From: Morchella semilibera
Taxonomy: Eukaryota; Ascomycota; Pezizomycetes; Pezizales; Morchellaceae
Assembly (NCBI GenBank): GCA_009192285.1
Contig: CM018603.1
Coordinates: forward strand, 5,577,613-5,641,612
Reading direction: 5' to 3'
DNA: 64,000 nt
The notes under the pieces were generated by a model. That model had not been told where the DNA came from, made no database searches, and was given only the letters and a program-made list of their open reading frames with translations. Numbering within the stretch: the stretch's first letter is position 1; every line of letters starts with the position of its first letter. Positions 7,111 to 64,000 of the stretch are shown here, piece by piece. Position numbers and translations under genes: made by a program.

Positions 7111-7406
7111 TACACCCTCATTAATTTTTTCATCGGCGGTTCTGCTCTCCCTCTACTATGTAACTGAGCCAGACTTTACCTTTTCTTGTAGTGAAGTTGC
7201 GAATTTTGCAAAAGTTGGGTTTTGGTGGGGACCATCCATAATTGCCTATTTGGGAGAAATACCGCAAAATCTTACGAATAACGAAACGGACCGGAAGGAA
7301 GTTGATACTTTTGTGATTGGCCAGACTCAACCACAACTCCATGACACGTTGTCATCTTAAATAAATTGTAGTAGAGATGAAGAATGAATAGTATAGACCC
7401 GCAATC

Positions 7407-9368
7407 ATGCCTCTTTCTATTATTCCCGATACCCAGTTGCAAAATGTTAAGCGGCCAGGAAAGAAGAGAACCACTAGTACAGTGGCAGAAAATCCCCGTG
7501 CTTTCCGTTCACAACCTGTCAAGTCAAAAGCTCGGCGTTCCTATCCTAATAGGAAAAAAATTGAGGTTCTATCCTACCTAGCGACCCGGTGTATCAGAGG
7601 AGAAGATGATTCCAGCGGAAAGTCTCAACAACGGTTTCCAACCCTGGTAGAAGCCTCACAATATGTTGGAGGCATTCCCATTTCGTGTATATCAACTTGG
7701 CGGAGGGATGAGGCAGAGCTTTTGAAAGGAAGGGCACATGGTCAAGGTGATAGGCAGATAAAAAGAACACATACACAGTGCATGTGGCCAGAAATGGAGA
7801 AAATCGTTTATATTCAGTTTTTGAAGCAGAGGGAAAAGGGTCAGATTGTTAGGCGTGGCTGGTTCCGATACTCAAGCACAAAGGCTTTTCAACAATGTTA
7901 TCCCAGATCGGAAAAACAATTTTGTTTTTCTCAAGGATGGTTTACTAGATTTTTGATACGTCACCAAATATCTATACGATTCACAACAAATCGTGCAACA
8001 AAAATTCCTCAAGATTACCTGACACCCATCATTAATTTCTTCCGGTTTATTCGACGGAACCTACACCCCAGAAACGGCGATATTGATTATCTTGACAATA
8101 TAAATCCTCTTGGCCGTATTCATTCAGTTGCTAGAATTGCGAATATGGATCAAACCCCTGCACCGTTTGAATATCTCTCCGGCCGGACATATGAACTGAA
8201 GGGTTCACATACTATATGGGCAAAAGCAGAGAGGAGTGGTTGGGATAAAAGGCAAGCAACAATTCAGTTAACTGTTTTGGCTGATGGGACTATGTTGAAG
8301 CCATGGATTATATATCGTGGAAAAGGCATGCTTCCTGACGCTGAATTAGATCAATATGATCAACGTGTGAGTGTGAAGTTCAATGAGGAGGGATATGCGA
8401 ATGAGAGTATTATTCTGGAATGGATTGAGCAACAACTTATACCTGTTATCCATCGAAAAAACACGGAAAATACTGCTAAATCAAGTGCTACTGGTTTACC
8501 GCTTGGTTTCCCAGAGCCAAATGCTGCTGGCCTTGTCGCTCTTGATGCCGCAAGTTTTCATCGAACCCCTAAAGTCCTGGATACCCTCAAAAATTCTAAT
8601 ATTACACCATGTTTAATACCTGGCGGATGTACAAGTCTCATCCAAGTTCTGGATGTTTCGGTCAATCGCTCATTCAAGGATATTTTAAAAGAAACAATGG
8701 AGGATGAACTGTATCGACTGGTTGACATTAGAGGAGAAAGCATTCTTCATACTCTAGATGCTGCCGAGAACGAAAGCGCCGAGAGCCATAGCACCGAAGG
8801 CGCCGAGAGCCATAGCACCGAAAGCGCCGAGAGCCATAGCACCGAAAGCGCCGAGCTTAAAAATCTGCAGCCAGCTTCTATATCCACTGTTGGACTCCGT
8901 AGAATCTTGCTAACACGGGCTGTTGGGGCTGCATGGGAAAGATTTGGTGAAGAAAAATATAAAAACAGCATTTTCAGAACATTCAGAAGGTAAGTAAACT
9001 CTCTAATTACTAGTGAATTATTCTAACTTTATAGTTTGGGTATGTCTCTGCCTATTGATGGCTCATGCGACAATGAGTTGTCAATTAAGGGTTTGGATCC
9101 GCAAGACTTAGTAGTGGGAGATTGGAAAGAAGACCTCCCCCTGAGTACTTGCATAGGACCCGGCGCAGTTGAGAAGGAGATAGCAGTAGAGGATGATGAA
9201 AACACGGGTGTTTCTTTTGTAGAAGTTGGAGGAGTTCTCCTTCAGGTAGGACGGCCAAAAAAAAACCACCCGGGCCCTAACCAAGAAAATAGTATACCTA
9301 GGGAAAAGCGGAAAATGACCTGCTCTTTGTGCCATCAACTTGGTCATAATAGAAGATCATGTAAATAG
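7407..9368 (+). CDS. Fot1/pogo transposase (DDE superfamily, CENP-B-like HTH)
   Basis: Cut-and-paste transposase inside the element at 7262-9483. Exons 7407-8989 and 9035-9368 are joined by a 45-nt intron with a GTAAGT donor, TTCTAAC branch and TATAG acceptor; the product is 638 aa. Residues about 120-205 form a CENP-B-type helix-turn-helix (RRGWFRYSSTKAF..QGWFTRFLIRH) that binds the TIRs. The DDE_1 catalytic core has D248 (ANMDQTP), D380 (VALDAASFH) and D416 (LIQVLDVSVNRSFK), a DD35D spacing typical of pogo/Fot1. Exon 2 ends in a CX2CX4HX4C zinc knuckle (CSLCHQLGHNRRSC). Without splicing the protein would stop at residue 528 and lose the knuckle. A 24-bp tandem repeat encoding SAESHSTE units lies near residues 453-483, just beyond the core. 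All key residues are present. Confidence 0.93.
8763..8855 (+). repeat. 24-bp in-frame tandem repeat in the transposase
   Basis: Three to four copies of a 24-bp unit (gaaagcgccgagagccatag + cacc) encode repeated SAESHSTE in the linker between the DDE core and the C-terminal part. Unit identity is almost perfect, so copy number probably varies between family members. Confidence 0.85.
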
Positions 9369-28289: not shown

Positions 28290-28720
28290 AATGGTTCACC
28301 CGTTCTACCAAACAAACCGGTTTCGGTAAACCGGTTCAGTTAATATTTCGGTTGAGCCTTTCTCTTTGAGTTAATTTGGTTTGAACGGTTCATCACAGTC
28401 AAAAACCACTTCAAACCGGTTTACTAAACGGTTCTATCATGCAGGTACGCATCACATAGAGGACATATTTCCCGCCTTCACCCCTTTTGGGCAGGCTTAA
28501 TTGCACCTGATAAATCAAGAAAAATACTCTGAAAGTACATCTAGTGTGTGGACCTGCAAACAAAAAAAAAGAACGGTTCTAGTTAAACCATTTTAGAGGA
28601 CCAATATCCAGTTCAGTTCAGTTCAGTTCATTTGGACATGTCATTCAGTTCAGTTCGGTATGGTATGACCTCCGAATACAACCAGTTTCAGCCGTTGGAA
28701 CTACCGGTTCAACAGGGCAA
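28290..28720. repeat. AACCGGTT-rich repeat block
   Basis: Many copies of AAACCGGTTT, ACGGTTC and CAGTTCAGTTC occur on both strands, including a (GTTCA)4 run at about 28611-28630. The block has inverted symmetry but no sharp termini that I could define. Probably a degenerate mobile element. Confidence 0.5.
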
Positions 28721-29410: not shown

Positions 29411-32400
29411 CTATGCCCCCCCAGAGAAGAGATCAGGCCTCAGCAGTTTCATGACACTTTGGTGATCGCCATCCCGTGCAATATCCAAAGCTGATTTCCC
29501 TTCTGCGTCGGTGATACTGACGTCAATACCAGCCACCCCCAGTAGCATCTCCACCGCTCCGTTATGGCCTTTGCTCGCTGCCAGCGTCAAGGCCGTAGAC
29601 CCAAGTCGGTTGCGGTAATTTATGTCGTATTCGCCCCTCTCCAAGACTAACTCAACGATCCGTGTCTTACCTGATTCCGATGCCATGAGAAGAGGGGTGT
29701 CGCCGTCACCGTCTATTTCCTGCAGCCTGTCCGTTTTGTCGTGCCTCTCGAGTAGCATCTCGCATATCTCGACATTTCCGCATTCGGCAGCGATCAGCAG
29801 TGGCGTTGCACCGTGGTTGGTGGTAGTCTTAAAGTCTACCCCTGGGTCCTGTAGGAGGAACTTGACTGCCTCGGTTGAACCCCATCTACAGGCTGAATAA
29901 AGAGGAGTACAGCCGCTATACTTTGTAAAACTCGTACCTTTCCTAATATCTTGGGCGACTATATTCAGGTCTGCCCCATGCGATAGGAGCTCTCGTATTG
30001 CCCCTACGTGGTTATTTCGAGCAGCCATATGTAGGGCAGTTTCACCCGTTTCTGATGAGGAATTTATATCGGCCCCATGAGACAGCAAAAGCTTAACTAT
30101 CTCCGTATTACCGTTCCTGGCAGCGACGTGGAGTGGGGTCCAGAATCCTTGAGTCTCTGCGTTGACGTCTGCCCCATACGATAGGAGCTCTCGTACTGCC
30201 TCTACGCGGTTATACCGAGCAGCCATGTGCAGGGCAGTTTCACCCGTTTCCGATGAGGAATGTATATCGGCCCCATGAGACAGCAAAAGCTTAACTATCT
30301 CCGTATTACCGTCCTCTGCAGCGACGTGGAGTGGGGTCCAGAGGGCTTTAGTTTTCGCGTTGACGTCTGCCCCATGCGATAGGAGCTCTTGTGCCGACCC
30401 CACAGAATTGTATTCCGCAGCGGTGTGTAGCGCAGTGTGGCCCGTTTCTAATGAGGAATGAATATCGGCCCCATGAGACAGCAAAAGCTTAACTATCTCC
30501 GTATTACCGTACTCGGCAGCGACGTGGAGTGGGTTCCAGAACTCTTTAGTTTTTGCGTTGGCGTCTGCTCCATGCGATAGGAGCTCTTGTGCCGACCCCA
30601 CAGAATTGTATTCCGCAGCGATGTGTAGCGCAGTGTGGCCCGTTTCTAACGAGGAATGAATACCGGCCCCACGAGACAGCAAAAGCTTAACTATCTCCGC
30701 ATTACCCTTCCAGGCGGCGGTGTGGAGTGGGGTCCAGAATTCTTTAGTTTTTGCGTTGACGTCTGCCCCATGCGATAGGAGCTCTTGCGCTGACCTCACA
30801 GAATTGTATTGAGCAGCGATGTGTAGAGCAGTGTAGCCCGTCTCTAATGAGGAATGAATATCGGCCCCATTAGACAGCAAAAGCTTAACTATCTCCGTAT
30901 TACCCTTCCAGACGGCGGTGTGGAGTGGGGTCCAGAATTCTTTAGTTTTTGCGTTGACGTCTGCCCCATGCGATAGGAGCTCTTGTGCCGACCCCACAGA
31001 ATTGTATTCCGCAGCAATGTCTAGCGCAGTGTAGCCTGTTTCTAATGAGGAATGAATATCGGCCCCATGAGATAGCAAAAGCTCAACTATCTCCGTATCA
31101 CCCTTCTTGGCGGCGGCGAGGAGTGGGGTCCAGAATTCTTCAGCTTTTGCGTTAACGTCTGCCCCATGAGACAGTAGCACCTTCAGCGCCCCTAATGAAC
31201 CAGCTCTCACAGCATTATACACCGCAGTCCACCCACATGCTCCTCGGCGATCGATATCGAGATTATTCCCTTTCAACAACAGCTCCAATAGCCAAACCTG
31301 GCCATTCTCCGCTGCCTTGATGAGTAGGGTATCTGCTCCCATGCTGCAATTTGCATCAATCCCTTCATGTGTAATGAGAAGATCAAGAATGACCCGATGT
31401 TCAAGGCGAGCAGCAGTGAAGAGAGGAGGTTCCATCTGCCCGTTTTGGCAATTCGGGTCAATTTCCTTGTGCCCCAAAAGGGTCTGTACAACTGATGCAT
31501 GTCCCCCGGTAACACCAAGAGATAACGCCGTGTCTCCCGCTTTAGACTTGTGGTTAATATTCAGGACTGGCTCACGGAGCAAGTCTTCGAGGATTGTACA
31601 GTGCCCCCCCACAGCGGCATGGTGAATCGCAGTAAGTCCGCTCTTATCTTCCAGGTTTATATCACAGCAAGCCACCTCCAGCATGTATGTAGCAGCGACA
31701 CCGACGTCGCCTATCTGTGGAACAACGGACTGTCTCTTACTACCCAGGAGAAAACGAACAGTGTCCACCCTGTTGCATTTAACCGCCACTATCAGTGGCG
31801 TAAGGCCGCCACCATCCCTCGCGTTTAAGTCAATGGTGGGTTCTTCCACCAATTTCTCAAGAAGGGTGAGTTTTCCCTTCTCAGCAAGATAATGGAACGG
31901 TGTGCTTCCGGCAAGGTTTGTACAGTTAGCTGTAAGAGTGTGCAAGCTTTCCTCCGCGATACCTATTAGCCCGTAGTAACAGACTGCCCAGACCAGACTA
32001 ATAGGCTCCCCCGCAGGGGCTTTGAGAGCGGGAATAAGTCTCCCTACGTTCCATGCCCAGAACCCCCAAGGCGGAGATGAGGGGTCAAGAAAGTTGGACC
32101 ACGAACGGATAGGAGCTATTCCAGGTTCGCTAAGGTGTATACCCCAATTCCGCATTGCGTAAGTGAATAGATCTTGACGTGAGGAGGTTAAGGAGCTTGG
32201 GTCTGGAAGCTCAGTTGGCGTGCACGTAAGAACTGAGAGGCAACGGTCAAGGATCCACTCTTGCCCCCCTTTTACACAGTCCTTTGGCCCTTCGTCCAGA
32301 TACTGTCGAACGGTGGCATGGGAAAAGCGTAGGATGCCTGTCTCGCGATCGTATACTATGAGTCCACAACACACATGGAGAAGGTTGTCAATCCTCCAAT

Positions 32401-35306
32401 GAATGGTCTCTTCGGATTTGATAGGCGATGGGAGATTGACATTAAGTGCTTGCAGTATCGTTTTTGGTGAGAAGTCATCTACCGCATAGAATAACCATTG
32501 AACCACCCTCTGAGCAGACGCTTGGTCTGTAGGACTCTGCTGTCTGATCCTCTTGAATATTCCGTCATACATAGTAGTCAAACCATGCGGAAACACCGCT
32601 AGGGCATCCGTTACGCCCTCGATAGTTGTTTCACGAGCTAAAGCCTGCATCCTAAGATGGATTGAAAGAAACCTGTATCGTTAGAACAGGAGACATTGAA
32701 TGATAACTTGTCGTATACATACATTCCGTCAACACCCTCCTGGAGAGCTGCCAAGATCTCCTTCTCGCCGCTCTTCATATCTTCCACCATACCTTTCTTT
32801 GTAGGATCCTTATATAACTTATCAAGCTCGTCCCGCATATAGCATTCAATGTCCATGAGGTTATCTCCAGGCTCGATGAGGTAGTTCTCGTAACCGTCCA
32901 TATATGCAATAATGTCTCCCTCGTTGCGCCCTGTGACGAATATCCGGGCTCCTTTCCCCCCCTTTTCAATAGCCTCCAGGGCCGAAAAAAGCTCCTTCCG
33001 TGTCTCTTTGTCACATTCGTCCAGGGCATCAAGAACGATCCATAACCCAGTGAGATGTCGAGAGAGCTTGATGATAAGGTCCGTGCTTTCTTTGACGCTT
33101 AATATGTCGGTACACTCCCGTTCTTTTGAGTCCTTGAGCTCCACCAGTGCGTGCGGGAGCCCATAGCCATCAGGTGAGTATGCAAGACAAACCTGTCTTA
33201 CAAGAGCCCGGAGTATGGAACCAGGGTCTGATCTATCCGTATGGGTTATACTACAGTAGAAGTACGCCACACAGTCCCCAGTTTGGATTGCGTTCTTTTT
33301 CAATAGCTCAATAGCAAAAGATCTATGGGCCGTCTCAGTATGGAATGCGGAATGAGTCGGGAGAACTCTATACTGACGCAAGAATTGTTTTTCCAGTACC
33401 AGCTTTGTCACAATTAGATTATCGTTATGAGTAGGGGAATATGTGGAGGCCTCTCTTACCACCACCCCTGAGCCATAGGACGGAGGACGAAGTCCTGGAA
33501 GAATTAAGCCAAGCGTCAAACTTATGGTTTTTCGTCAGCCATAGACATGTATTAGGAGTCCGTCGACGACAATGTTCCAAGTGGGTCTTTCCAAACTGCG
33601 TAGTTGACACCCAGTCTAGGGTTGTGGTTATGACTTGCTCTTCTCAAGTTAGCTCATTAAAATAATATGGTGGAATCGCGTTCGTGCGTACTATCGACAA
33701 ATTGACGGAGCCGCTTAATGCTTTCATGGCAAGATATCAGGATCGTCTCCACCATTCTTAACTGTCCCCTGACCTCTTTTAAGTGACCTTCAAGCTTGTT
33801 GCGTGATTCATTCTGTTCTATAACCCCATCTGCTGTTAAAACCAAACGATGCGGAAGGAAACCAGGGAGTGGATACTTAATCGCTCCATAGTCATAGCTT
33901 CGCTAGTATGTCAGTATCAGACGTTATGGATTCTCGGTGATAATAGAGTTCGAACCTTCTTTTTCAATAAGTTCCGCCCGTTTTCTAGTTTCCTCCTCCG
34001 AATCTCGTATTCTTTGCAGCAGGTCCGCAAGCGTTGAAGAGAGGCTTTGTATAATTTGCACTATTGAGCGAAAAGTCATCAGTTTACCACTTATACTGAA
34101 GATTAGTATTTCGTAGATATCGGACAATTCGTACCCCCTGTATTCTTTTGCAGATGCTGTTTGGCACATAGAAGATACTCCAAAATTGCGACATATTGAT
34201 TGATCAAGGATCTCTGTAGGTGAATTATCGATCCTTGCTCGAGATCTATGTATAGGTGCTCGTAAATCGCCCCACAGCATATGACCCACGAAAGATAACC
34301 CAGGCTACTTAGGATCCTCGCAAGATTTTCACTATACGCAACTCCTACCTGCAAACTATTAGCAGAGTTCACCCTTGGCTCAGTGAGTACTAACATCCAG
34401 GAGGAACCTAAATCCTGCCCAAACTAATGCCACTACATCTGGATTATGCTGCAGGGCAATATCGCCGATTTTAGCGTACTTTTTGAGTTGAGAAAAGATT
34501 TTGTCGGCAATAAACACATCATCACCCTTTGCGACTTTATACTTTAATCGTTTCTTATCGACCTCTTCCCGTAAATGCTCCACCTCCTCAATCAAGCTCT
34601 TCACTGGTGGCTGGGCATTCTCCCTATCAACATCTAGCTCCACATCGCAACTCTCTTTCAAGATGGCTATTGCTTCGCCCCACAACCAAGATCTATATCC
34701 CATGAAGCATATGAGTATTGGTCAACCTGACCTCTTTGATATATCAGGCGGGCTCTTACCGCTCTATATTTTCAGTGATCAAATCGTCGAATGTCACCAT
34801 ATCTCCAATTGCGCGGCTCCTGGTCGTTGGACCAAATGATTCTTTTAGGTGGATGCCCCCCCCACCGTGGGATGGCCGTATCAGTATATCGGGCGCTGCA
34901 ATGTGTCTAGGCGGCGGCTCAAGCTGTGTTCCGTTTAGAGTAGTTTTTGGTGGTATAAGATTCGTCTGGGCTAATGCATTATTGCCACCACCGTTTGCTT
35001 CCCCGGTGATGGGATATGAGGTAGGTAAAGGCAGGGGAGGCGGGAGGTCGATAGCACCTATAGCCGGAGTTCTTTTAAATAATTAGAACACATTCCCTTA
35101 GAGCCTATGATCTCAGAAACATACTTAGGCACATCCTCAGATCCAACGGAATTTGCAGTATCGGTCGGGTCGGGCGGTGTATCCGGCTCCTGTAAGGCCA
35201 CGAGGGTCTGGTCTGTTTGTGGTACCGCATCGGCGGGGGGCGGAGATGTCTTTCCCTTCCCCGATCTTCCCTTTGAAGTGCAGAGCTTTGATAGTGCAGA
35301 GCCCAT
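29411..35306 (-). CDS. NOD-like receptor: lipidation-type N-terminus, Pro-rich linker, helical domain, NACHT, ankyrin repeats
   Basis: Ten exons (minus, 5' to 3'): 35306-35125, 35071-34760, 34692-34395, 34348-34135, 34060-33956, 33832-33692, 33615-33460, 33402-33374, 33333-32723, 32672-29411. All phases close, giving 1769 aa. Residues 1-19 (MGSALSKLCTSKGRSGKGK) look myristoylated, palmitoylated and basic, so inner-membrane attachment is likely. Residues 20-164 are Pro-rich (LPPPLPLP at 70-77). Residues 165-450 match the helical domain before NACHT in fungal NLRs (LWGEAIAIL, ALVWAGFRFLLD, QYVAILEYLL). NACHT: P-loop GGAGTGKT (468-475), Walker B LWIVLDALDEC (576-586), and GMFLSIHL at the end. 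About 24 ankyrin repeats fill roughly 945-1765. Such receptors sense non-self and trigger cell death or incompatibility. Exons 4-6 have the weakest splice sites (33955 donor GTTCGA); the rest is well supported. No internal stop remains. Confidence 0.88.
30045..31230 (-). repeat. tandem 198-bp units coding for paired ankyrin repeats
   Basis: Six consecutive 66-residue units, each two ankyrin repeats (consensus TALHIAAEYNSVGSAQELLS then TPLHVAAxxGNTEIVKLLLS), differ at only a few positions, whereas the flanking ankyrin repeats are diverged. The DNA is likewise highly similar between units. This pattern is typical of repeat arrays that expand and homogenise by unequal crossing-over in fungal recognition genes. 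Confidence 0.9.
33374..33402 (-). other. 29-nt microexon encoding the NLR P-loop core
   Basis: The exon encodes the end of Ala470 and then GTGKTILAS. It lies between a 57-nt intron (donor GTAAGA at 33459) and a 40-nt intron (donor GTATAG at 33373, acceptor at 33334). Unspliced translation lacks any Walker A motif; with both introns removed the motif is perfect and in frame. Confidence 0.8.
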
Positions 35307-45044: not shown

Positions 45045-48000
45045 ATGCATTCTACCCTCGCGTGTTCTGATAGGTTCGAAGTATCAACCCCCGCATTCAT
45101 CCGGGGTCTCGCGCTTCATGAACTCACCACCTCACCCTTGCGCAAAGGATTCCGTGACGGTATGGAGTGCAACAACTACCGCCTCGAGACAGAGTTTTTA
45201 AATGACGGCTCTTCCGTGGCTCATACCACACGAGTCGACGCTAATCTTCCGCCCACCACCACTGTCTGGACCACCACGCGTTCCATAGGACACGGTGGTG
45301 ATGGGGTCGTGGACCTCCAGTCAGAGCCATCTGGTCTTGTCCGCGCTGTTAAACGCGTCCATGTTTGCGACAGATACATGAAAGAGGTCATCATCCTATC
45401 AAAGGTTTCGGATGTAAACACACCTCTTGATCCCCTTTCGCGTCCGTTGCTAAATTGGAGAACCGTCACGACCTCTTCGTTCAGTTCCTTGGGTGGTATG
45501 AAGATAAAAACTTCCTATACATCGCTATGGAATTCATTGCAAATGGCGATCTGGCCGAGTACATAAAGGCCCGTGGGGAGTCACCGGTACCGGAGCAGAC
45601 ATGCCAGGCGATATCGAGGCAGCTGCTCGAGGGGCTGCAGGTGTTGCATGAGAGGCTCATTTGCCATAGGGATTTAAAACCACGGGTAAGGACCATATAC
45701 ATCGCCCTTCACCTCTTTGTCCTTCAGTGATTCCTGCTTACTTGGAATGGACCTAGAATATCCTTGTTGCCACTTTAGAACCGATTAGTGTTAAAATAAC
45801 TGACTTTGGGGTATCCAAGCATCTGGAAGGCACAGTGTACCGCACTAGGGTGGGAACGGTTGGATATATCGCACCGGAGATCCAGGGCATGTGGCCACCG
45901 CCGAAGACGCGGCGCGTTCCTTTCAGTATGGCCGTCGATATCTGGGCGGTGGGTTGTATCATCCACCAGTTATTGTCACTGCAACTGCCGTTCGCTAGAG
46001 AGTGGGAGGATGGTCAGGATGTCATGATGGCAGATGGATATTCGGTGGGGGATTGCAGCCAGATAATTGTCGAAATGGATATGCCTCGATTGCTGGCGTA
46101 CTGCTTGGGTCCGGAACCGCTCCCTGTAGAGGCACTGGAGAGGTCAGGCACCAGCCTGAACGCGATGGAGGTTGTGAGAGCTCTTTTAAGGGCCGATCCA
46201 GCCGCCCGAGTAACTGCAACAGAAGCACTGGAGTATCCCTGGCTGTTGCGACCCGAGCAACACTTCAGATTTCGAGTTGATCCTACAATCACTGGACCTT
46301 CAACCTCTGGCTCCCAGCGCACACCGCCACCGCACCAACCGGCTGAACCTGGGGCCCCACCGGAAGAGCCCAACCCACTGGCAGACTATCCACACACGGC
46401 AAAGGCATTGTACCCATTTGATAGCGGTATACACTCATCAAAACAAAACGTATTGTCATTTTCCATGTTTGATATAATGGATGTTCTAGACGTCTCCAAG
46501 GCCTCAGCGTGGTGGAGTGCAAGAGATAAGAGCGGGCAGCGGGGTTGGGTACCATCAAACTACTTTGTTGTCATCAATAGTCCACCGGCAGAGGATCCTT
46601 CTATCAACCATACGGCCCCAGGACCTGCGCCTGACCTGAGAGGGACAGTCATCGGAACATCCACTACTTCCAATCTTAGCGTCCTTTCCCTTATCCTCAC
46701 TATACTCCAAGGCTATAGGAAAATCAAGACATTCGTCCCAGATAACAAGATGCACGACCAAGACGCCCAGCTGCTCTCTTCCACCGTGGTGATGTCCCGA
46801 GTGCTGTTTCGCAGTGCTCTCGAATGCTTCCTCCAGGATATCATCGAGGACCATATACGGCATACCATGCTTGATGACCTGGATAGCCCGCACTGGCGTG
46901 GGGATGAGCTCAACACCCGAGTCAATAATACGCTGGGGAAATCTATCGATGCGGTAAGAGCGCTACTTTGAGCTGCACGCAAATCCTCGGACAGATTCAG
47001 CATTTACAGGCTAGTTTATTTCAGTGGCCAACGCATGAGGGTAATCCCGAGAAACTCGCGGTAGCACACCCCGAAGAACGTTTGCGTGGCTCAAAGTAAC
47101 TAACGGTCTAGGAAAACGTTCTCTCCGACCTCGTCAAACTCCGAGACGAGCTGATAGAGTACTCCAACTATATGTTTGAGCTTCTCAATTCGATAAAAGT
47201 ACGGGCGGAGAGCCCACCGGCTGCCGGGTTCCCAGAGCAGTGGCGGCGGGTGGGATGGCTCACGTTCCTCCGGGTGGTTTTATCCGACGCCTTGATATGC
47301 CAATGTCACACTGTTTACCTTTGTCTTGACGGGCAGGTGGTCACGGAAACGTCAAGCGACAACAGGAATGGAGTATCCAGTGAAATGCAGACTCCTATGG
47401 ATGTAGAACCGCAATTTTCGTTCCTATTTACGAAGGGGAAAAACACTACCATGATACCGGAATCGTTACTGGTGTCTTTTCGACCTGTGACTGTGCCCTC
47501 ACAAACCCCTGACCGGTGCTGGCGAGGTAGTATCTGTGCGAAGGTGAAGAGTCAACGGGTGGGTTACGAAAGATACATCCGGATCCCCCATCATGCCAGC
47601 TGGGGCTTCAAGCTTCGGCTGAACAAACCTTACGCGTTGGATGACGGCGGCGGCATGTCCTCACTTATGCACCTGATCACAACGCGGTCCTACCAGCTGA
47701 CGACCATTGATCGCCTCCTAATGGGGATCAAACTAGCCGAATCATCCCTGCACCTGTACACCTCGCCCTTGGTGCGAGGCTGGAGCGTCGACACTATCTA
47801 CTTTCTCACCGAGCAGGCCAGAGGGGGGCCAACGGCGGGGCGGTGGACACCACATCTAGTGCTAAGTCCCGCGGCCTGGGCGGTTTATGCCGTTAGCGAT
47901 TGGAGTCAGGGCATGTTCAGGCTGGGGATTATGCTTCTTCAGGTTGGCTTGGAGGGCTGGGGACCCGGTTCCGAGACTTCGGCCTTAACGTCGATTGTGC

Positions 48001-48176
48001 CGGCGATTGTAGGGGTCGATGAGTCAATGGGTTCTGCATACGCTAACCTTGCAACATGGTGTTTAATGCGGGGTCGGAAAAGCAATATGTTTGATCCTAT
48101 GTCTGAGCTGGTCGCGGAAGTGTTCATGATACACTTAAATAGGTTAAGGCGGGCGGCTGGTACAGTTGATACCTAG
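45045..48176 (+). CDS. Ser/Thr protein kinase - SH3 - helical segment - DUF7580-like protein
   Basis: Exons 45045-45413, 45461-45685, 45757-46953 and 47112-48176 are all joined at phase 0, giving 951 aa. Kinase, residues about 72-300: glycine loop SIGHGGDGVV, AVKRV Lys103, Glu114, HRDLKPRN (192-199), DFG (214-216) and APE (237-239), all catalytic residues present. A Pro-rich linker (TPPPHQPAEPGAPPEEPNP) follows. SH3, 415-471: ALYPFD, WWSARDKSGQRGWVPSNYF. Residues about 505-640 are helical and resemble the first part of fungal DUF7580 proteins, themselves compared with HeLo-type cell-death domains. The C-terminus (CQCHTVYLCLDG, FRLGIMLLQVGLEGW, ATWCLMRG..DPMSELVAEVF) resembles DUF7580. Inference: a signalling kinase that recruits Pro-rich partners and carries its own death or immunity-related module. 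The exact start is uncertain; Met40 is an alternative. The third intron (158 nt) is the least certain join. Confidence 0.85.
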
Positions 48177-61331: not shown

Positions 61332-64000
61332 ATGGATGAGCAGAGAGAGGAGTGGGTGAAGGTTGAGTCTCGGGCATCTTCTCCAGGCGATAGGAGCACG
61401 TTGACCCCCCAGCATAACAAGAGCGCGCCCGGACCGAGGCCAGTGTCAGGCCAGAGCTTCCGTATCTCCGACATACCAAACTCTATTTCGCAATCCCAAC
61501 TTCGTCAATTCCTGGAAGAGCTAGCTATCCCAGCTGGAGAGAGAAGAGAAGGAGATAATGTCCTTATATTGTCTCTCGCCAGGTCCCACTCCGGGATCGA
61601 TTCGACTCGATATCAGATAGCAACGGTTACCTTCCATCAGGTCCCAGAAAGACTTCTCTCATGTGTCTCTCGCTCCGAGACGGTACCAGTTTTGCTATCG
61701 AAAGGCCGGGAGTCTACGGAAGTCAACTTTGATTCTCATTTCCTTGGTTTAACGCCGTTATTCAGTGCTGAGAACCCCACGGTTGAGTGTGTTGGATATC
61801 TTTGACTTCTCCTTTACAAACCAAGGATAACCTGGCTAATTAGCGCGCTGCTATATAGTATCATTGCAGTTACTGGCCTCGCGGGGCATGCCTTCGGCTC
61901 TTGGAAGGCCCGTGGCGGCGTAAGGATGTGGCTTCGTGATTTCCTTGCAGAGGATATAGCTCAGGACGGTCATTATGTTCGAATTATGACATATGGGTAC
62001 GATTCAACACTGGTTGGGAGTGCATCGGATGCCTCAGTACACGAATTTGCAAGGAGGCTTTTAGAGACATTGAAGGACTCACGTTCTCATCCAAATGTAG
62101 GTGAAGGAACCCACCAATGGAACCTAGGCACTTTGAATATGCAGACATATTTAGCTTCACACACTTACCCTTCGTTAGGAAGAGTGTCGACCGATCATCT
62201 TTATCGCACATAGCCTTGGTGGCCTTGTTCTCAAGCATGTAGGAGCATCTCACTCGAATCACCTTAGCACTCGTTCCAGCTGACCATCTAGGCCCTTAAT
62301 GAGGCAGCACACGGTGACTCTAGAGACCAGGCCATTTTCCGATCATGTTATGCGGCCTTATTCTTCGGGGTGCCAAACAGAGGCCTTCTGAATACCCACT
62401 TAGTCTCGATGGTGCGAGGTCAGCCAAATGCGCACCTCGTGAGGGATCTCGGTGAAAGGTCACAGTTCCTTCCACAGTTACATCGAGAGTTCCAGCGTCT
62501 ATTTGTTTTCGAGGATGCCAAAATCTATTCGTTTTACGAGTCGAAGGATACCCGGTCTGTTGAGGTAGCCCTCGCGTGTCCATCCACATCTAAGGAATAT
62601 ACTTATCACCTACTCTGTTTATAGTATAACCAGGACACGAAGAAATACGAGAGGACAGGTCCACTGGTACGGATGGTTACGCGCGAATCTGCAACATCCT
62701 CGGGCCCAAATGAAAAGATTTACCATCAACTCAACATCGACGCTGACCACTCCGATATCGTTAAGTTCGGAAGCCGCTCAAATTTTGATTATATGACGGT
62801 CAGAAGGAAGATTATAGAGTGTGTTAAGGAAGCACCACGAGCCATAAGGAACCGGTTCATAAGGACGGAGAGTATGTAAACTCTGTATTTGATGGGCAAC
62901 CCTTTTAAGCCCAAATGATATCTCTACTTAGTCTTCAGATATGTTGAATTGCATGTATGAAGTATAAATAAATAAATAAACATATATGTTGAATTTAAAC
63001 TAACCAAAAGCTGCATTGCGTTCCAGGAACCTCTGAGGAGGAGCAATGCCTCCGTTCCTTACTTGCGGCCGGCAATGACTCAGTCCCTAAGGCACCGATA
63101 GCTCACCCAGGGACTTGCGAATGGCTTCTTGGGCAGGAAACTTTCAATGAGTGGCGGTTCTCCAGAAAAACAGCTTCTCGGTTCCTGTGGATTCATGGGA
63201 ATCCTGGCACTGGAAAGACGGTCCTCATGAACTTTTTGCGAGAGCAGCTGGCCACCGATTCAAAATCGTGCATCGCCTACTTTTCCTGCAACGATAAGGA
63301 AGACAACAATCGCACAGCGCTAGCAGTACTCAAGTCGCTACTATATCAGTTACTGAGGCAGAACCTGGCGTTCTTCCAACATATCCTACCAGAATATGAG
63401 AAATTGGGGATGGGTAAGGAAATGAATTGGTCGGCTACCGCGCTTTGGGGTATATTCCGCAAGATAGCCACTGATCCAGCCGCCGAATGGGTGTACTGCG
63501 TTGTTGATGCTCTGGATGAGTGTCTCGATGATCAGAGTGGAAATCACTACCGACGGTCGGATCTCCTCCGTGACCTACATGCGCTATATCTTTCACAGTC
63601 CCCAGAACAGTGCACAGCCAGAATTACACTCAGTAGCCGACCGATTCTACAAATTCAATCACTTCTACCAAATGTCAGCATTGTCATCCGACTCGAAGAC
63701 TTTAATGCTCCAGACATCGCCCGATATATTTCAGATGAGGTCGGTAGACTAGCTATCAAAGGCAAATATCCGCCAAGCCTGAAGACGGAGGTTCAGGAGG
63801 CAATTGAAGGAATGTCCGGCAACATGTTCCTTTGGGTTTCCTTGACAATGAGCGAATTAAGCAAGCGCCGCACAACCAAAGAAGTCCGCCATCTGCTTAA
63901 CAATGTCCCGCAGACCTTATTCGCATATTACGAACGTATTCTTGCCAGCATTAGTAGCGAAAATAGGGACCGAGCGAAAGTTCTGCTTATGTGGATTACG
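61332..64000 (+). CDS. NOD-like receptor with SesB-like alpha/beta-hydrolase and NACHT domains (3' end beyond window)
   Basis: Exons 61332-61786, 61859-62096, 62179-62238, 62292-62564, 62634-62871 and 63027-64000 (continuing) give 746 codons with closed phases. Residues 1-152 are an N-terminal region with FRISDIPNSISQSQLRQFLE. A lipase/esterase domain of the SesB (PGAP1-like) type follows: IIAVTGLAGHAFGSWKAR, AHSLGG with nucleophile Ser243, LFFGVPNRG, and DADHSDIVKF with likely catalytic His381. NACHT: CEWLLGQETFNEW, P-loop HGNPGTGKT (478-485), YCVVDALDEC, LSSRP, GNMFLWVSL. Repeat domains normally follow, but the window ends first. Fungal NLRs of this class couple non-self sensing to a putative lipid-modifying effector. 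Intron 5 (62872-63026, donor GTATGT) carries a tiny retroposon-like insertion. The first donor (GTGTGT) is unusual; the others are ordinary. Confidence 0.9.
62939..62995 (+). mobile_element. ultra-short retroposon-like insertion 4, in an NLR intron
   Basis: A perfect 12-bp direct repeat, ATATGTTGAATT (62939-62950 and 62984-62995), flanks GCATGTATGAAGTATAAATA + AATAAATAAACAT. It lies wholly in intron 5 of the hydrolase-NACHT gene. Confidence 0.65.

Follow-up and report, generated by a model that had tools for sequence, protein, structure and literature searches.

A kinase-SH3-DUF7580-type fusion gene in Morchella semilibera as a candidate signalling switch

Pseudokinases pair with kinases, and in necroptosis RIPK3 phosphorylates MLKL, a relay that serves as the model for one of the readings weighed below. 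In fungi, CHK2/PRD-4-like kinase domains have been reported in 12 NLRs of the Sordariales, with a C-terminal position in nine of them, and have been proposed to act as decoys (PMC12258605). According to a 2025 review, HELL domains occur in some kinase or pseudokinase proteins, and the extreme N-terminal helix of HeLo proteins is described there as the element that attacks the membrane (PMC12881547). No paper was found in a literature search on DUF7580, nor was any paper on the order kinase-SH3-DUF7580 found by title or abstract start; the sequence comparisons reported here cover this genome, Pfam and the PDB.

The window analysed here is a stretch of 64,000 nucleotides of M. semilibera (C1:5577613-5641612), and the genome searched comprises 56.8 Mb in 23 contigs, with a gene content that points to a fungus (short introns and genes of the HeLo, DUF7580 and NACHT-ankyrin kinds). 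A kinase-SH3-DUF7580 fusion is real in the sequence of one gene of the window (Table 1). The order of the three parts in one protein, proposed by an earlier sequence-only reading of this DNA, holds, and exon 3 is shared between them, with the qualification that the last part is DUF7580 by transitivity only.

Table 1. Features of the fusion gene (positions in the window) and of its DUF7580-matching paralogs (contig positions)
Feature	Coordinates	Strand	Basis or remarks
Gene, kinase + SH3 + DUF7580-type	45045..48176	+	951 aa in the model of the sequence-only reading
Exon 1, aa 1-123: N-terminal extension and start of kinase N-lobe	45045..45413	+	G-loop 82-89, K103, E114
Exon 2, aa 124-198: kinase core up to HRDLKPR	45461..45685	+	72% identity to paralog E exon 2, dN/dS 0.16
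Exon 3, aa 199-597: kinase C-lobe, SH3, start of DUF7580-type module	45757..46953	+	single open frame, 399 codons
Exon 4, aa 598-951 and stop: remaining DUF7580-type module	47112..48176	+	identity 40/41/34/32% to paralogs A/B/C/D
Protein kinase domain, aa 76-361, spanning introns 1 and 2	45270..46245	+	Pkinase E 3.4e-49
SH3 domain, aa 414-465	46402..46557	+	SH3_1 above Pfam cut-off
Helical N-part of DUF7580-type protein, without the relatives' start Met	46669..46953	+	alignment to A, B, C, D
Putative former coding stretch, frame shifted, within intron 3 as first drawn	46954..47060	+	in-register match to A/B/C
Likely ancestral intron 3, 51 bases, GCG/GTAGCA ... CTAAC ... TAG	47061..47111	+	inferred from sequence
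DUF7580 part, probable pseudokinase-like C-lobe, aa 660-951, HRD and DFG absent	47298..48173	+	profile comparison; no direct Pfam match
Paralog A (L052)	C21:65422-66339		40% identity to exon 4
Paralog B (L053)	C1:5664080-5665018		41% identity to exon 4; about 38 kb downstream, same contig
Paralog C (L054)	C21:652425-653321		34% identity to exon 4
Paralog D (L034)	C21:1387728-1388429		32% identity to exon 4

Gene structure and the third intron

An exon 1 end at 45404, giving a protein of 948 aa, was dropped in favour of 45413 (951 aa), since the kinase-SH3 gene designated paralog E has a matching donor junction at the common position (GAT/GTAAAC in the window, GAT/GTAAGC at the E junction). Translation could possibly start instead at the later Met40, which by eye has a counterpart in paralog E. 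On the strand of exon 3, the other two frames hold 13 and 21 stops, and exon 4 is one open frame of 354 codons.

The 399 codons of exon 3 run from the kinase C-lobe through the SH3 domain into the first part of the DUF7580-type module, with no stop between the SH3 domain and the helical part. The standalone DUF7580 relatives A, B and C start with MDITLGV or a similar sequence at the point where the window segment begins, and no Met is found in the aligned window segment, SNLSVLSLILTILQGYRK, nor anywhere across aa 440-529. Both kinds of gene occur separately elsewhere in the same genome, which would agree with two neighbouring genes, kinase-SH3 and then DUF7580. Nevertheless, because exon 3 is shared and the DUF7580 part has no internal start codon, this reading is highly improbable, and the two-gene model was discarded.

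As first drawn, intron 3 extends from 46954 to 47111 and measures 158 bases, the other introns of the gene having 47 and 71. Read in a shifted frame, however, its first part (46954-47060) continues the A/B/C helix in register. In a register test against A, B and C, which allowed any of three frames and shifts of at most 2 residues, the in-register score was equalled by 2 of 5000 dinucleotide shuffles and at 2 of 18,256 window places, taken every 7 bases on both strands. Local alignment of the stretch at any place was not significant, 1073, 1027 and 259 of 2000 shuffles being as good for A, B and C, respectively. Against D, this procedure picked out another match, which lies in a different frame and reads through a TGA (35 of 2000 shuffles as good, tblastn E 0.004), and when the four paralogs were summed, 93 of 2000 shuffles were as good. 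Since only the fixed-register test against A/B/C is strong, the case for a hidden exon depends on this register and on where C and D have their introns (64 and 52 bases), which follow a GCG codon in the corresponding linker. In the window, GCG is likewise followed by a possible intron of 51 bases (47061-47111), with the same acceptor as the 158-base intron. The donor of the longer intron (GTAAGA) is nearer the usual consensus than that of the shorter one (GTAGCA). The simplest account of the sequence would be that a single-base slip of the frame near 46955 created the GTAAGA donor as well, and the third intron was probably misplaced in the earlier model. The phase consistency that the sequence-only reading attributed to its gene model is not confirmed, its intron 3 apparently holding a shifted-frame coding remnant that few shuffles equal.

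Genome searches returned matching places on both members of the contig pairs C9/C10, C12/C13 and C21/C22. Eight locus pairs of C9/C10 and C21/C22 were compared base by base, amounting to 28.2 kb aligned but about 21.4 kb distinct, since two pairs overlap two others, and they revealed 4 one-base indels, all in a single pair, and 0 substitutions. On this basis, C9/C10 and C21/C22 would seem to be duplicates made in assembly, with some errors left in them.

The apparent frame break near intron 3 may be an assembly error, a mutation rescued by splicing or the sign of a broken gene. We consider it possible, and just short of probable, that the slip is an assembly error and that the living fungus carries an intact gene, with a longer exon 3, a 51-base intron and a complete helical part. 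Indeed, the C and D introns match the 51-base intron, the hidden stretch still resembles A/B/C, and the duplicate contigs differ by one-base indels, so that such errors seem to occur, although these indels are confined to one of the eight pairs and the donor of the 158-base intron is the closer to consensus. That donor, together with a CTAAC branch-like site, a TAG acceptor and an in-frame join of exons 3 and 4, would instead suit a real slip whose shifted stretch is spliced out, the frame being restored and the 951-aa model being right except for the last helical part. Intronization, albeit rare, is reported in fungi and provides a precedent (PMC2740785, PMC3629103), but 158 bases compare poorly with the 47 and 71 of the gene's own introns and the 64 and 52 of C and D, and we regard this second course as unlikely. 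To the same degree unlikely is a decaying gene, in which a real and unrescued slip would cut the product to about 602 residues (kinase, SH3 and part of the helical region) and leave the 3' part dead. The unspliced exon-3 frame is open to 46968, with TGA next, and residues in the C-terminal part are altered, as such decay would have it; nevertheless, the 354 open codons of exon 4, with a dN/dS of about 0.2 against the nearest relatives, argue against it.

Kinase, SH3 domain and DUF7580-type module

In the Pfam search, aa 76-361 matched Pkinase with an E of 3.4e-49 (168 bits; 951-aa numbering), and the full set of catalytic residues claimed by the sequence-only reading was recovered: G-loop 82-89, K103, E114, HRD 192-194 with D194, DFG 214-216 with D214, APE 237-239 and D259. 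The kinase is presumably active. The SH3 domain was also confirmed, SH3_1 scoring 27.8 bits (cut-off 22.9; E 1.9e-6, aa 414-465) and the genome scan giving identical bases; the SH3 match of paralog E reaches 28.2 bits. Among the best 60 of 492 PDB matches, the nearest solved structure was RAD53 (E 1.8e-35), followed by a CAMK2 (3.8e-27) and CHK2 (2.9e-25). Phylogenetically, the kinase groups with the FHA-kinase L061/L066 of its own genome (support 0.872 in FastTree and 75% in IQ-TREE), L061 being, with moderate support, the nearest to it among the genome's FHA-kinases in the tree. No FHA domain is among the Pfam matches of the window protein, and none of the 13 FHA hits in the genome falls at the gene. 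On the best reading of the sequence, the gene would belong to an expanded family of CHK2/Rad53-like kinases whose partner modules have been swapped.

Neither the full protein nor exon 4 was matched by the Pfam profile DUF7580 (PF24476) with the E limit set at 1, nor were the last 453 residues with a limit of 5, and the window gene is absent from the 11 hits of this profile in the genome. Beyond itself, exon 4 matches seven genome places, corresponding to four distinct genes after dropping duplicate contig copies, namely paralogs A, B, C and D (E 1.6e-49, 3.5e-45, 3.9e-35 and 4.7e-12, respectively), whose helical N-parts are 39, 36, 27 and 20% identical to that of the window protein in the alignment. 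These paralogs match DUF7580 with E values of 1.6e-5, 3.5e-5, 5.8e-9 and 3.3e-6, C and D lying above the cut-off and A and B just below it. Because it is A-D, and not the window protein, that match the profile, the C-terminal half would belong with DUF7580 proteins by transitivity only. The DUF7580-like character claimed for this half is thus upheld through the paralogs and fails as a direct Pfam match, and the profile check that the sequence-only reading had proposed found SH3 above its cut-off and reached DUF7580 by that indirect route.

The C-terminal half likely consists, although this falls short of proof, of about 100 helical residues followed by a C-lobe that is kinase-like but diverged and has neither HRD nor DFG, so that the helical module proposed earlier would be retained for the first of these segments and not for the remainder. 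Two proteins of the same genome provide bridges to kinases. One stretch of L015 matches both DUF7580 (8.4e-7) and Pkinase (1.7e-6, below cut-off), and L012 (L012:493-2130) combines a HeLo match (E 4e-5, above cut-off) with DUF7580. In profile comparisons, the window family was related to the L012/L015 bridge at 96% (E 1.4e-9) and the bridge to kinases at 97% (E 1.6e-10), whereas the relation of the window family to kinases without the bridge was weak (24%, E 8e-4). Three reversed controls gave 0.1-0.2%, and the observed score of the window family profile was reached by 0 of 40 column shuffles against the bridge and by 0 of 40 against kinases. With the bridges in the profile (A1), a PDB search recovered the kinase domains of KSR, B-Raf and MLKL (best of each, E 1.4e-5 to 2e-4), MLKL ranking behind the other two; once the two bridge proteins were left out, the window-family profile found no PDB kinases. 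Taken as bridges, L012 and L015 suggest that DUF7580 is kinase-related. Single-sequence structure models had pLDDT values too low to use (36.5 for exon 4 and 41.8 for 46357-46953).

No Pfam match to HeLo was found in the helical part. In profile comparison, this part gave 0.1% with the HeLo segment of L012, no higher than any of 20 shuffles, and 1.8% with the N-part of L015, above all 20 shuffles but across 15 columns only. A PDB search with the helical part (A2) returned nothing meaningful, with 5 matches up to E 10 and MLKL not among them. Since there is no Pfam match and the profile relation to L012/L015 is low, the sequence does not support the name HeLo for this part. The coupling of the kinase to a cell-death domain, which the sequence-only reading had considered plausible, finds no backing in these comparisons.

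Relatives, neighbourhood and selection

Paralog E (L055, C23:2413501-2420500) encodes a kinase 60% identical to that of the window gene, followed by SH3 and a C2H2-like tail whose matches lie under the Pfam cut-offs, and no DUF7580 part was found within its 7-kb locus. The window kinase and paralog E are sisters in the tree (100% support) and lie together with L045-L051 on one side of a well-supported split (0.997 and 100%). Of these, L047, L048, L049 and L050 are presumed CHK2-like kinases with ankyrin repeats behind the kinase; in L048 and L050 the kinase and ankyrin matches share one open frame, and in L047 and L049, where the matches lie in separate frames, the fusion is presumed. Of the 150 kinase rows listed, a minimum for the genome, 34 by hand count (32 without two duplicate-contig copies) begin at profile positions 125-129, just after HRDLKP, the intron site of the family. 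The fusion appears to be one outcome of the swapping of C-terminal modules in this kinase family, and its likely parent types, a kinase-SH3 gene like E and standalone DUF7580 genes, would be present in the same genome.

Pairwise dN/dS was 0.23 for the kinase against E and 0.18-0.25, where computable, for the C-terminal part against A and B, values that take in time before the fusion. The dS values (1.1-3.2) are near saturation, and 8 of 15 comparisons, that of SH3 with E included, were saturated. These figures are consistent with purifying selection when each half is compared with its nearest relative. In an unrooted five-sequence tree, the branch lengths to the common node were 0.91 for the window, 0.42 for A, 0.93 for C and 1.61 for D, the window branch exceeding those of A and B but not that of C. 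The motifs RDWG and NRD.YRLG, common to A/B/C, read RGWS and SQGMFRLG in the window and are mostly changed in the more distant D too; such alterations would fit a decaying module.

Elsewhere in the window, an NPHP3_N ORF (32641-33534) followed by an ankyrin ORF (29414-32680), both on the minus strand, was taken as presumably one NLR-type gene (29414-33534), and a plus-strand NPHP3_N/NACHT ORF (62999-64000), also NLR-type, runs off the window end. The NLR/HeLo environment suggested by the sequence-only reading is thus matched by NLR-type genes, and not by the helical part, in which HeLo was not found. A transposase-like ORF with DDE_1 and Tc5 DNA-binding matches is located at 7392-8990 on the plus strand. 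Paralogs A, B and C each stand head-to-head with a gene that by eye is zinc-finger-like (HVFADL.PYMCI or similar ... HHMEDIRLFALPP), and this conserved DUF7580/zinc-finger-like gene pair may be a functional unit. No relative of the zinc-finger-like partner of A was found beside the window gene, the best window match (28330-28488) having an E of 0.037, and the two tested ORFs of the zinc-finger-like partner gave no Pfam match at E up to 0.01.

A possible relay and its place among known systems

The explanation that we tentatively favour, as possible but somewhat short of probable, is that of one gene for a three-part protein, in which an active kinase of CHK2/Rad53 type is joined to an SH3 domain and to a DUF7580-type module (a helical part and a catalytically dead kinase-like C-lobe), which would have arisen by fusion of an E-like kinase-SH3 gene with an A/B-like standalone DUF7580 gene and would operate as a relay. 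In such a relay, the SH3 domain and the DUF7580 module would place and restrain the kinase and would recruit partners to it, most likely standalone DUF7580 proteins. On release, the kinase would phosphorylate the attached module or the standalone DUF7580 partners, and this phosphorylation would relay a nonself or damage signal. The enzymatic activity, partners and immune role of the fusion protein are those that we infer, and the gene would be a candidate for a self-contained signalling switch.

The above-cut-off matches to Pkinase and SH3, the homology of the C-terminal half to the DUF7580-matching paralogs, the existence of E as a kinase-SH3 sister without DUF7580, the starts of A/B/C at the beginning of the Met-less window segment, the purifying dN/dS of both halves and the link of the DUF7580 C-lobe to kinases via L012/L015 are all in line with the three-part relay, and have to be set against a frame slip that may end the protein at 46968, ahead of exon 4, changes in residues common to A/B/C (changed in D too), a long window branch (0.91, with 0.93 for C), a direct link to kinases that is weak (24%) and finds no PDB kinase without the bridges, and dN/dS values that partly predate the fusion. 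A wider proposal, which we hold to be quite unlikely, is that DUF7580 represents an unrecognised fungal pseudokinase family and that the gene joins a kinase to its pseudokinase partner in a single-molecule relay of the RIPK3-MLKL type, in a fungus whose CHK2-like kinase family has interchangeable modules (ankyrin repeats, zinc finger, SH3 and DUF7580). Very unlikely, in our estimation, is a necroptosis-like executioner in cis, with the kinase phosphorylating its own pseudokinase part and thereby freeing a membrane-attacking helical bundle. A helical part and a pseudokinase-like C-lobe do adjoin an active-looking kinase, MLKL is among the A1 matches in the PDB, and some HELL domains are reported in kinase/pseudokinase proteins (PMC12881547). 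However, the attack helix of HeLo is described in the same review as extreme N-terminal (PMC12881547), and because the helical part is internal here, near residue 503, and has no HeLo match, the executioner version is the less likely one.

Fusions reveal partnerships, and if kinase and DUF7580 module work in one chain, the separate ones of other fungi may cooperate. The three-part relay, if true, would give the poorly known DUF7580 family a first testable role, and would add to the reported NLR cases (PMC12258605) a further setting in which CHK2-like kinases are tied to nonself responses of fungi.

Within the genome, paralog E resembles the window gene in its probably CHK2-like kinase and SH3 domain, its first intron donor and its 60% kinase identity, and differs from it in the C2H2-like tail and in the DUF7580 part, which was not found in the 7-kb locus. 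The standalone paralogs A, B, C and D have the same helical N-part and DUF7580 C-part, whereas the loci of A, B and C contain no kinase match (B has one at chance level, E 0.69). L012 shares the DUF7580 C-part, but has a HeLo match above cut-off and no kinase-SH3 part in its frame. Among described systems, MLKL and the fungal HELL-kinase/pseudokinase proteins, as reviewed, have a comparable layout (PMC12881547), a helical part preceding what in the window protein is probably a dead kinase-like part, whereas in the window protein a relation to HeLo/4HB is unsupported and an active-looking kinase and SH3 domain stand in front. The Sordariales NLR kinases, as reported, bring a CHK2-type kinase into immune-type architectures (PMC12258605), as the window protein probably does; the latter differs from them in its N-terminal kinase, its SH3 domain and DUF7580 module, and its lack of NACHT.
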